From Gemmataceae bacterium (GTDB taxonomy: Bacteria; Planctomycetota; Planctomycetia; Gemmatales; Gemmataceae), in assembly GCA_019748295.1 (NCBI GenBank), contig JAIEPT010000053.1, positions 1 through 64,000 of the forward strand: DNA of 64,000 nt, given 5' to 3'. Shown piece after piece: positions 24,477-51,895 of this stretch (positions within the stretch are counted from its first letter, which is position 1; every line of letters starts with the position of its first letter). The position numbers and the translations under genes were made by a program. The notes below the pieces were generated by a model, which worked only from the letters and a program-made list of their open reading frames with translations, searched no databases and was not told the DNA's origin.

Positions 24477-24899
24477 TCATTTCCCATCCACGCGCGATTG
24501 CAGCAGCTTCCGGATCTCCTCGGGAATCTCCATCGATTCCATCTTCTGCTCCTCCGCCATCCGGCAACAGACCGCGGTCGAACGGCCAGTCGCGATCGGT
24601 TGGCCCGCGAGGGTGAATGCGAAGCGGTAGCTGATCGACTTGGAGCCGATGCGTTCGATGGCGACATCGATATCGACGACGTCGTCGAATCGCAGCGGAC
24701 GGATGTAATCGCAGCCGACGGAGACGCGCGGGAAGCCGATCGGCACCTCTTGATGGAGCAGCTTGACCGAGAGGCCGAGCGAGCGGAGAAACTCGACCTC
24801 GGCGAATTCCATGTAGCGGAAATAGTTCGCGAAGTGGACGATGCCGACCATGTCCGTGTCGCAGAAATCGACGCGGCGGCTGCAGCGGAAAGGGGTCAT
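24477..24899 (-). CDS. YbgC-like acyl-CoA thioesterase
   Basis: A 140-residue hot-dog fold thioesterase. The 4-hydroxybenzoyl-CoA thioesterase motif reads FCDTDMVGIVHFANYFRYME, with the catalytic aspartate at about residue 16. The rest (VGCDYIRPLRFDDVVDIDV) fits the family. It hydrolyses acyl-CoA, and the substrate is not predictable. The start codon overlaps the stop of the upstream glycosyltransferase by 4 bases (ATGA), so it is the last gene of a three-gene run: dedA-like, glycosyltransferase, thioesterase. Confidence 0.9.
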   Translation of the reverse strand: MTPFRCSRRVDFCDTDMVGIVHFANYFRYMEFAEVEFLRSLGLSVKLLHQEVPIGFPRVSVGCDYIRPLRFDDVVDIDVAIERIGSKSISYRFAFTLAGQPIATGRSTAVCCRMAEEQKMESMEIPEEIRKLLQSRVDGK

Positions 24900-26182
24900 G
24901 TCACGTACCTCCGATAAATCGCCAGCGTCGCCTCGGCCATGGCGGCGGCGTTGAACTTCGTTTCCGCTGCTTCTCGTCCGCGCCGGCCCATCGCCTTCGC
25001 CTTCTCGGAGTCGCGAGCCAATTCGAGCCAACCGCGAGCGAGGGCATTGGGGTTGTTGTTTTCGACGATCAATCCGCCGCCGCCGAGTTCGGTCAGCTCG
25101 GGAAAGGATCCATGCCGCGGCTGCACCGTCGGCACTCCGTTGGCCCAGGCTTCGAGCACGTAAAGCCCCTTCGGTTCGCGGAACACTGCGGGAACCGACA
25201 GCACATCCAGGCTGTGCAAAAAGCGAACCTTCGAGGCATGGTCCGGCGAATCGACATGTTCGACTTCGTTCGCCAATCCTGCTTCCTTCAGCTTCGCCAT
25301 CTGCTCGTTGAAGTACTGCTTCTGATTTTCGCCCAACCAGCCGGACATCCGCAACCGTGAAGGGGGGGACGACGCATCCGCCCGATAGCGGAGGTAGGCA
25401 TCGATCAACACATGGAAACCCTTCTCGTGAGCGATGCGGGCGAAGTAGCCGATGGTGAAGGGGCGATCCGGCCGGGCCGCGGGGACGCTGTAGCCCTTGA
25501 GATTGATGCCGGGATAGACGACCTCCATCTTCTGCCGATCGATGCCCAGGTAGCCGGCCATGTAGTCCGCGTAATCACGGCTGGTGGAGACGAAACCGTC
25601 GATCGACTTGCAGTTTTCGCGGATCAGTTCGAGCGATCGCATGCGGTCCTTTTCGGGCAGCATGTCGAGGAAGACGTCGTCCCCTTGCAGCATGGCGAGA
25701 ATGGGAACGCCGAGCGCATCCTTGATGGCAGGGATCATTCCCGAGAGGAGCACATTGGTGAAGTGCAAGATCTGCGGCTTCGCTTCGTCCTTCAGAAAGG
25801 CGACGAGCTTCTCGATCTCCTTCTTCTGATGGCCATGCGTCCCTTCGAGCATGGAGATGGTGAGGTCGCCAAGCTGATCCGCCCGCGTCTTGACGGCGAA
25901 CCGCGAGATCCAACGCAGGAGGCGGGGAAAATCGAGCAAGCGATCCAGGAACCAGGGCGTCTTGCGGAAAAGGGACGACTTCTGCTGCAGGTAGACATTG
26001 ATGCCGCCGAAGAACACCCGGCTCTGCGAGACGTCCGCTTCGTCGGTGCGGATCGGCGTGTAAGTGGGAATCAGCAGAGCGTCATGCCCAAGGCCGACGA
26101 GCGCGGCTGCTAGCGTGTTGTCATGCATGCAACTGCCGCAATACATCCCCGCAGCGCCGGCAGTGACGTACGAAATCCTCAT
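24896..26182 (-). CDS. Glycosyltransferase, GT4-like
   Basis: A 428-residue GT-B glycosyltransferase. The N-terminal Rossmann half begins MRISYVTAGAAGMYCGSCMHDNTL. The C-terminal donor-binding half includes FTIGYFARIAHEKGFHVLIDA (about 230-250) and FREPKGLYVLEAWANGVPTV with the conserved EX7E-type acidic pair region. It probably transfers a sugar from an activated donor to a cell-envelope acceptor. The start at 26182 overlaps the upstream dedA stop by 4 bases. A longer open frame exists but is only the repeat-rich dedA tail read in another frame. Confidence 0.9.
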   Translation of the reverse strand: MRISYVTAGAAGMYCGSCMHDNTLAAALVGLGHDALLIPTYTPIRTDEADVSQSRVFFGGINVYLQQKSSLFRKTPWFLDRLLDFPRLLRWISRFAVKTRADQLGDLTISMLEGTHGHQKKEIEKLVAFLKDEAKPQILHFTNVLLSGMIPAIKDALGVPILAMLQGDDVFLDMLPEKDRMRSLELIRENCKSIDGFVSTSRDYADYMAGYLGIDRQKMEVVYPGINLKGYSVPAARPDRPFTIGYFARIAHEKGFHVLIDAYLRYRADASSPPSRLRMSGWLGENQKQYFNEQMAKLKEAGLANEVEHVDSPDHASKVRFLHSLDVLSVPAVFREPKGLYVLEAWANGVPTVQPRHGSFPELTELGGGGLIVENNNPNALARGWLELARDSEKAKAMGRRGREAAETKFNAAAMAEATLAIYRRYVT

Positions 26183-27171
26183 GGCGTGTCTGGCTCCCCT
26201 CGCCCCAACGGGGTAAGGGGCTGCGAATCCGACTCCCCTCGCCCCTTGGGGGAGAGGGGCGAGGGGGGAAGCGGGGTCAGCCCCTCTCCCCCAAGCGGCG
26301 AGGGGGGAAGAGGAGCCAACCTCTCTCCCCCCTGGGTAGACGGCGGCGAAGACAGCTTGTGGCGGATGGCCCCGATGATGATCGGCAAAATGGAAACGAA
26401 CACGACGATCAGGATCACTTTCTCCAGATGATCCTGTACCTCGAAATGTTCCCCAAAGATCGGCCGCAGCAACGGCTGAATCACGCTCGGCAGGTAGTAG
26501 CCGAAGACCGTGAGGCTCACGACCCAGCCGATGCCGCCGATGATGTTGAACATCAAAAATCGGCGATATTCCATCCGGCCCACGCCCGCCACGACGGGGG
26601 CGAAGGTGCGGACGATGGGGACGAAGCGGGCCATGATGATCGTTTTGCCGCCGTGCTTTTCGTAAAAGGCCTGGGCTTTCAGCAAGTGGTCCTTGTGGAA
26701 GAAGAGCGAGTTCTCGCGATTGAAGATGCGTGGCCCCGTTTTCCATCCGATCGAATAGCCGACGCTGTCGCCGACGACGGCGGAGATGCACAGGGTGAGC
26801 AGCAAGAGGGGCAGATTCCAGTTGCCGACGTCCGGTGACGCGATAAATCCGACGGTGACGAGCAGCGAATCGCCTGGCAAACAGAATCCGATGAGCAGGC
26901 CCGTTTCGACGAAAACGATCAGGTTGACCGCGATGAACGCCGGCACAATGAACTCGGGCCGTTTCAACACGTTCAGCAGCTTGCGGCTATCGAAGAGGCT
27001 GGTGAAAAGCTGATACCAGAAGCCGTCTTCGGAAGCCGGCTCGACGGCATTGGGCGCCGACACCTGCGGTTCGTCCGCATGCACGGACGCAAGAGCGGCC
27101 CACGCGAACCAGACGAGTGCGGTCCAAAGGAGGATTCGCATCCAGCGAGCTTGTCGGTTCGTTCGATCCAT
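26179..27171 (-). CDS. DedA-family membrane protein with repeat-encoded tail
   Basis: About 330 residues. An N-terminal hydrophobic segment ending in SVHADEP may be a signal peptide or first helix. The DedA/SNARE-associated core follows: VETGLLIGFCLPGDSLLVTVGF, MARFVPIVRTFAPVVAGVGRM, and further helices to AIRHKL. DedA proteins are implicated in polyprenyl-phosphate and lipid flipping and in envelope homeostasis. The last 57 residues (PPSPLGGEG, LPPSPLSPKGRG and similar) are translated from a family B palindrome, so the tail is repeat-derived. The stop overlaps the glycosyltransferase start. The start is uncertain: 27171, 27141 and 27198 are all possible, and 27171 has an AGGA upstream. Confidence 0.87.
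   Translation of the reverse strand: MDRTNRQARWMRILLWTALVWFAWAALASVHADEPQVSAPNAVEPASEDGFWYQLFTSLFDSRKLLNVLKRPEFIVPAFIAVNLIVFVETGLLIGFCLPGDSLLVTVGFIASPDVGNWNLPLLLLTLCISAVVGDSVGYSIGWKTGPRIFNRENSLFFHKDHLLKAQAFYEKHGGKTIIMARFVPIVRTFAPVVAGVGRMEYRRFLMFNIIGGIGWVVSLTVFGYYLPSVIQPLLRPIFGEHFEVQDHLEKVILIVVFVSILPIIIGAIRHKLSSPPSTQGGERLAPLPPSPLGGEGLTPLPPSPLSPKGRGESDSQPLTPLGRGEPDTP
26194..26335. repeat. Palindromic repeat family B, copy 4, inside dedA
   Basis: CTCCCCTCGCCCC and GGGGGAGAGGGGCGAGGGG blocks alternate on both strands. The whole element is read through in frame as the C-terminal tail of the DedA protein. Confidence 0.88.
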
Positions 27172-27244
27172 GAAGACGCGATCCTGGAGCGGTTCCATGC
27201 GCAATTTTCGCCGCTTCGGCAGTGTATCAGCGAACATTGTGTTT

Positions 27245-27445
27245 TGTAGGGAACGCCTCCGTGGCGTTCCGCCTGAATGAACACGTACAACCCATTCGCC
27301 GATTTCCGCGATCACCGCTTGCGGCTTAGCGCGATCCGGATTATTTATGCGAACGCTAAGCCGCAAGCGGGGGAGTCGGTCAGGGATTACCAACAATCGG
27401 ACGCGCGTCCAGTCCGGCGGAACGCCACGGAGGGCGTTCCCTACA
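27245..27445. repeat. Composite palindrome family D, copy 1
   Basis: Outer arms (TGTAGGGAACGCCTCCGTGG 27245-27264 onward, complement ending 27445) enclose an inner hairpin, CCGCTTGCGGCTTAGCG (27315-27331) with its complement (27354-27370). It fills the gap between the TPR and dedA genes. Confidence 0.88.
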
Positions 27446-27502
27446 GAACGCGACGTCACGGCATAGGCTGTCGATGAATGCTGCGTCCATCTGCAAACCG
27501 CG

Positions 27503-38318: not shown

Positions 38319-38353
38319 GGGACGTCTCGAACCAAGGTGGAACCGTCATCGCC

Positions 38354-38475
38354 TGTAGGGAACGCCCTCCGTGGCGTTCCGCGGGACCGGGCGCGCAGAG
38401 CGCCGATACTCCCGTTTCGCGATCACCGCTTGCGGCTTCGCGATCCGCAGCGTCTGATCGCTAAGCCGCAAGCGG
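38354..38475. repeat. Composite palindrome family D, half element
   Basis: The left outer arm (TGTAGGGAACGCCCTCCGTG and further) and the inner hairpin CCGCTTGCGGCTT / GCTAAGCCGCAAGCGG are present, but the right outer arm is missing. It lies between two same-strand genes. Confidence 0.75.
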
Positions 38476-39406: not shown

Positions 39407-39450
39407 GTTCGTTCTTGAGTGACGATAATCTCGCGGAAAGCGTGACCCGC

Positions 39451-39666
39451 TGTAGGGAACGCCCTCCGTGGCGTTCCGCCGAACTGCACGCGTCCGAAGG
39501 CATGCGTTCCCATTCAATCGTCGGCCTTCCGCTTGCGGCTTAGCGTTCCTGCGTCCCCTTCGGCTCGCTAAGCCGCAAGCGGAATACGGACGCCCGAACG
39601 TGGGACTACTTCCCTCGGACGCGTCCAGTTCGGCGGAACGCCGCGGAGGGCGTTCCCTACAGAACG
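39451..39666. repeat. Composite palindrome family D, copy 3
   Basis: Complete form: outer arms TGTAGGGAACGCCCTCCGTG... and complement, a middle dyad GGACGCGTCCAGTTCGGCGG facing CCGAACTGCACGCGTCC, and the inner hairpin TTCCGCTTGCGGCTTAGCG with its complement. Confidence 0.9.
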
Positions 39667-39678
39667 CGGCGATCTCGC

Positions 39679-51608: not shown

Positions 51609-51637
51609 ACCACTCTAGACCGATTCGCAGATTGCTC

Positions 51638-51851
51638 TGTAGGGAACGCCCTCCGTGGCGTTCCGCCGAACTGGACGCGTCCGAACGACGAAATCCTGTT
51701 TGCAATCGCCGGTCTTCCGCTTGCGGCTTAGCGTTCGCACAAAACCTCGGCTCGCTAAGCCGCAAGCGGGACACAGGCGCCCGAATGTGGGACGACTCCC
51801 TCGGACGCGTCCAGGCCGGCGGAACGCCGCGGAGGGCGGTCCCTGCAAAAC
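51638..51851. repeat. Composite palindrome family D, copy 4
   Basis: Complete form with outer arms TGTAGGGAACGCCCTCCGTG... and complement, middle CTGGACGCGTCC, and the inner hairpin TTCCGCTTGCGGCTTAGCG. It separates two convergent genes. Confidence 0.9.
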
Positions 51852-51895
51852 GCGACGTTGGTCGCCATTTCCATCCGCAAACTGCTATAAGCAAA

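Follow-up and report, generated by a model that had tools for sequence, protein, structure and literature searches.

What is the origin of the last 57 residues of a DedA-like membrane protein encoded on the minus strand of a 64,000-nucleotide stretch (the window) from the Gemmataceae assembly GCA_019748295.1, and how does its stop codon come to lie on the start of the next gene, a group 1 glycosyltransferase? An earlier note on this DNA had these residues translated from a palindromic repeat that became coding without breaking translational coupling to its neighbor. The answer we favor, with good confidence, is that dedA lost its own end and that its frame now runs to the ATG of the next gene through an array of repeats resembling the repetitive extragenic palindromic (REP) elements, leaving a tail that is likely a tolerated by-product.

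The gene (26179..27198, minus strand) has 339 codons plus a stop, starting at 27198 and ending in a TGA at 26181-26179. Its translation has a VTT domain, PF09335, at residues 107-234, scoring 67.1 bits against a Pfam gathering cut-off of 33.9. The NF008102 model, named "DedA family protein", aligns over residues 89-282 with 173.2 bits, which is under its curated equivalog cut-off of 236, and hence we file the protein as DedA/VTT-like only. The closest named matches are metagenome-assembled genomes (MAGs) of Planctomycetia and Gemmataceae, and the window genome is itself a fragmented MAG of 6.47 Mb in 399 contigs. An alignment of 40 sequences and an AlphaFold2 model agree on a portion shared with relatives, residues 1-282 (26353..27198, minus strand); the last helix is predicted at residues 254-283, and the conserved part stops near residue 282. 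What follows is a C-terminal tail of 57 codons, residues 283-339 (26182..26352, minus strand), predicted to be unstructured, with the predicted local distance difference test (pLDDT) score at 49-60 from residue 291 onward. Codon use in the tail is repeat-like, at -0.33 bits per codon versus +0.52 in the DedA core. The tryptic peptides predicted from it are LAPLPPSPLGGEGLTPLPPSPLSPK and GESDSQPLTPLGR.

The repeat origin of the tail comes from comparison with the rest of the genome. In a blastn search of 26150-26380 against the remainder of the window and 68 other loci of the same genome, 44 subject sequences yielded 93 matches, whose union covers 26187..26350 (no strand assigned), with at least 5 matches over 26189-26343. 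Coverage falls to zero at both gene edges, reaching neither the conserved DedA codons nor the glycosyltransferase ATG, and roughly 51-54 of the 57 tail codons lie within the matches. Genome-wide, the interval 26170-26360 has at least 74 matches, with 40 of 179 first-look candidates scored. The claim that the last 57 residues come from a repeat read in frame is thereby borne out, as is the repeat origin of what had been called a "family B palindrome"; the description as one palindrome does not hold, as the tail consists of degenerate palindromic units in an array, and the repeat matches give scant support, if any, to its opening few codons. Within the array is a tandem 39-nt direct repeat, 82% identical (26255..26332, no strand assigned, repeat family D14), and the window has no Rfam match at gathering score. 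Of the six possible frames across 26187-26350, four contain no stop codon, and readthrough therefore calls for no particular explanation. The family can be followed by its hairpin core, CCCTCTCCC-N(0-14)-GGGAGAGGG, which has 554 exact copies in the 6.47-Mb genome versus 4 for a reversed-pattern control; it is thus a short palindromic stem-loop at high copy number, as REPs are.

The next question is whether relatives of the protein have anything like this tail. In 24 loci from the relative search, all but one in the same family, the protein ends 11-51 residues past position 282, and in 51 further DedA loci the figure is -10 to 38, making the 57 residues of the window DedA the longest in comparison with these 75. 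The hairpin core is absent from the last 90 coding bases in 75/75. The sole match to the window tail among the 75 queries is 19 nt in locus L024 with E = 0.008, which is chance level. Hence the comparison of lengths and junctions that the earlier note had proposed finds every relative ending shorter and without the repeat, and no case of the same tail lacking similarity to it. The DedA of genome G029 (seen as L013 and L040, which are one gene) has an in-frame copy elsewhere, in its N-terminal linker, with 44 nt at 91% identity to copies in the window genome. DedA is therefore decorated with the repeat at different sites in two genera.

To place the family, we look at where its copies lie. The core is present at least once in 59 of 95 family genomes, own genome included. 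As an observation on the side, counts among the 95 run from 0 to 554, the window genome being highest and the next, G075, having 217; the high count is a lineage-specific expansion. Genes were called by a codon-model caller, and a first survey took the window plus 20 stretches of 20 kb (464 kb). It had 39 clusters, 36 of them outside called genes, with a coding fraction of 0.79; the exceptions are DedA, Mfd (L177), and a doubtful N-terminal overlap (L182). Among the 33 clusters flanked by genes on either side, the median distance to a 3' end is about 37 nt (38 distances) and that to a 5' end about 160 nt (28 distances). A mostly extragenic position near gene 3' ends is again what is expected of REPs. 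The commonest loops are CAAAG/CCAAG and GGA, and the units of the DedA tail resemble the CAAAG/CCAAG type. In the 50 copies listed for the CAAAG and GGA loops, inspection by eye shows the CAAAG type running on as GAGCAAGA/GAGCCAGA with no tag, and many of the GGA type having GGTAGAC about one base past the stem. We considered whether the repeat maintains an unusually open frame for coding and rejected it: of frames of 165 nt, 194/576 are open in repeat-centered stretches (34%), 258/900 in intergenic stretches without a core (29%), and 1722/3780 at random positions (46%). With a rate like that of other stretches, reading through a repeat copy is unremarkable.

Copies inside other genes were sought in 40 targeted stretches, which were chosen for holding copies, so that no rate can be derived from them. 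Seven of 59 clusters overlap called genes, two in a TIGR03936 gene (L129) and one each in FadB-like (L154), YgiQ (L165), purL (L155), L147, and L136. The L147 gene has no NCBIfam match, and the L136 cluster lies upstream of a LigA match and probably does not fall within the real gene. Copies are clearly in frame in the FadB-like enzyme, YgiQ, and the TIGR03936 protein. For the FadB-like enzyme, alignment of relatives shows the site empty in 18/18 rows, which represent 15 distinct genes, and for Mfd it is empty in 16 of 17 genes, the exception, G003, having an unlike insert in the same loop; the YgiQ site is variable among the relatives aligned. In-frame copies in unrelated conserved genes, absent from the orthologues, are thus found in Mfd and the FadB-like enzyme, in the manner of the Rickettsia palindromic elements (RPEs). 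With 75 DedA relatives lacking the tail, this bears out the proposal that a repeat of mobile type became coding. A number of repeat-coding open reading frames (ORFs) proposed by an initial, crude codon model were set aside after a second gene caller dropped them, namely those of L132, L139, and L145, the minus-strand ORFs of L147, L151, and L155, and the plus-strand ORF of L136. Some side observations belong here. In genome G003 (L207 and L186), the Mfd insert is about 40 residues and unlike that of the window genome, and YgiQ has a palindromic repeat pair in frame at the variable site. By eye, the intragenic copies favor two of the three core frames, in too few cases to claim.

How the dedA end was formed may then be pictured as follows. 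A REP-like array, of a family mostly extragenic and near gene 3' ends, would have come to fill the space that separates dedA from the glycosyltransferase gene, presumably by insertion. In the window lineage, dedA would have lost a short native tail and its stop just past the last helix, and the frame would continue through the array to end at the first in-frame stop, on the glycosyltransferase ATG. The open frame suggests that the tail is translated. Most likely it is an unstructured, tolerated by-product and not an evolved function, and it would be close to neutral. It is probably young as well as tolerated, because it is predicted to be unstructured and its codon use is repeat-like.

Several findings weigh against this picture. 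No genome of the same genus was among those returned, and the empty site at the dedA junction was not seen among them. A second, unbiased survey of 400 kb had 36/36 clusters outside called genes with a coding fraction of 0.81, so that in-frame copies are rare; with coding fractions of 0.79 and 0.81 in the two surveys, the repeats avoid genes. There is no transposase beside the repeat as there would be for one served by a REP-associated tyrosine transposase (RAYT): the genome has 13 Y1_Tnp matches in 12 regions, a few cut by contig ends, cores occur in 3 of the regions, and the nearest lies more than 1 kb from a match. A repeat directly flanking a RAYT was accordingly rejected, none of the 12 regions having a core within 1 kb. 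Finally, purL in L155 (G000:C306, ~1950-2120) contains a three-unit array with the halves of the protein in different frames around it, which shows that the frame is not always kept.

The purL frame split may be an assembly error, a broken gene, or recoding, and the first of these bears on dedA too. In a MAG so rich in repeats, a mistake of sequencing or assembly could have erased the real stop of dedA or caused a frameshift, and the 399 contigs and the purL split are in keeping with that. We consider it very unlikely for dedA: with four of six frames open through the array no single error is needed, the junction sits well within a contig of 64.9 kb, and the Mfd and FadB-like cases are independent of it.

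A more serious contender, possible although we would not bet on it, is that a repeat copy already sitting upstream of the glycosyltransferase gene was fused, by recombination or deletion at the repeat, to a dedA shortened at its 3' end. The gene pair is in no relative examined, the end typical of DedA proteins is gone, and the repeat is numerous enough for its copies to recombine. Against this, Mfd and the FadB-like enzyme show clean in-frame gain of a copy in the window genome, and nothing speaks directly against it. Such a scar differs from the explanation we favor only in route, and the repeat would be translated in both.

There remains the junction itself. The glycosyltransferase gene (24896..26182, minus strand, PF00534) has a start codon backed by relatives that align from residue 1. 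The minus-strand bases 26182-26179 read ATGA, and the stop of dedA does overlap the start of its neighbor by 4 bases, as the earlier note said. The further assertion, that coupling was not broken, finds no support in the relatives. An orthologous glycosyltransferase is beside dedA in 0/78 relative DedA loci, L058 having a partial hit, 32% identical and on the opposite strand, near its DedA. In the other direction, DedA is in the fetched flank of 0/29 relative glycosyltransferase loci. Flanks were under 600 bases downstream in 4 of the 75 DedA loci in which the stop could be placed and under 600 bases upstream in 2 of 29 glycosyltransferase loci. Since the pair is in no relative examined, no ancestral coupling is shown that could be kept. 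A thioesterase of 4HBT type (24477..24899, minus strand, PF13279), which also has an ATGA overlap with the glycosyltransferase, neighbors it in 15 of the 29 loci, and the older pair is glycosyltransferase-thioesterase. By eye, the gene upstream of the glycosyltransferase in L090, L096, L097, L101, L105, L113, and others ends like FFLPEP and is not dedA.

Neither does the overlap call for a special cause. Because the glycosyltransferase begins with ATGA, a chain that reads through the array in one of the three frames will inevitably terminate there. Among 202 codirectional gene pairs, 30 have an upstream stop that reads NTGA and lies within 60 bases of the next called gene. The ATGA overlap is ordinary; chance does not account for the presence of the repeat or for the way it fits between dedA and its neighbor. 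As a separate observation, an ORF of 631 codons (24896-26791, minus strand) extends the glycosyltransferase frame back beyond its ATG, across the repeat and into dedA.

One could nevertheless suppose that the tail has been put to use, with the hairpin hiding the glycosyltransferase start and ribosomes translating dedA opening it, which would make the downstream gene depend on dedA translation. The RNA fold of 26179-26352, at -103.5 kcal/mol with z = -3.76, beats all 200 shuffles, the stop lies on the start codon, and the glycosyltransferase has no conserved upstream neighbor of its own. Yet given readthrough, chance would produce this frame and overlap about one time in three, the codon use is unadapted, and the overlap that is conserved is the one with the thioesterase. 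We regard such a use as very unlikely.

At 27243-27455, 38353-38401, 39450-39671, and 51637-51857 the window also has another palindromic family, CTGTAGGGAACGCC...GGCGTTCC, that resembles a GTAG-tagged REP.

Extension of C termini by small repeats and in-frame palindromes are already published. In enterobacteria, the small mobile repeat RU-1 at a 3' end removed the stop and extended the amidase ECA3499 beyond its conserved domain, with orthologues lacking the extension, and there are related cases in the same group (Delihas 2007, PMC2759123). This is alike to the dedA tail as a kind of event, although the repeat and the phylum differ and the ECA3499 chain ends inside the repeat, after 35 residues, whereas the DedA chain runs through to the start of the next gene. 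REPs of the GTAG and CGTC super-families are found within genes, many of them repair genes, and some at the ends of coding regions; intragenic clusters code for 43-82 residues, and REPs occur in Planctomycetes as well (PMC3733652). In contrast to these, the sub-family nearest to the dedA tail has neither GTAG nor CGTC at the stem end in the listed copies. RPEs, about 100-150 bp, are inserted in frame in unrelated genes (PMC10969869, PMC3767692). The likeness is in behavior, and nearly half of the first reported elements were in ORFs, whereas 3 of 75 clusters of the window-genome repeat are in called genes, one doubtfully, counting the unbiased stretches and the window. No report of this repeat in Gemmataceae proteins was among the matches listed, going by titles and the starts of abstracts.

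A wider proposal would be that a GC-rich REP-like family of Gemmataceae repeatedly settles in variable loops or at the ends of housekeeping proteins (Mfd, YgiQ, FadB-like, probably TIGR03936, and DedA, which two genera have at two different sites filled) as a running source of disordered segments, and that the dedA hairpin also makes the glycosyltransferase depend on dedA translation. Taken as a whole we think this unlikely. The locus gives a comparative example, from an environmental phylum, of small palindromic repeats giving conserved proteins new coding sequence, with filled and empty sites that can be compared between genera in Mfd, the FadB-like enzyme, and DedA. Annotators should also be warned that disordered PSPLGGEG or SPKGRGE segments in planctomycete proteins can be translated repeats.
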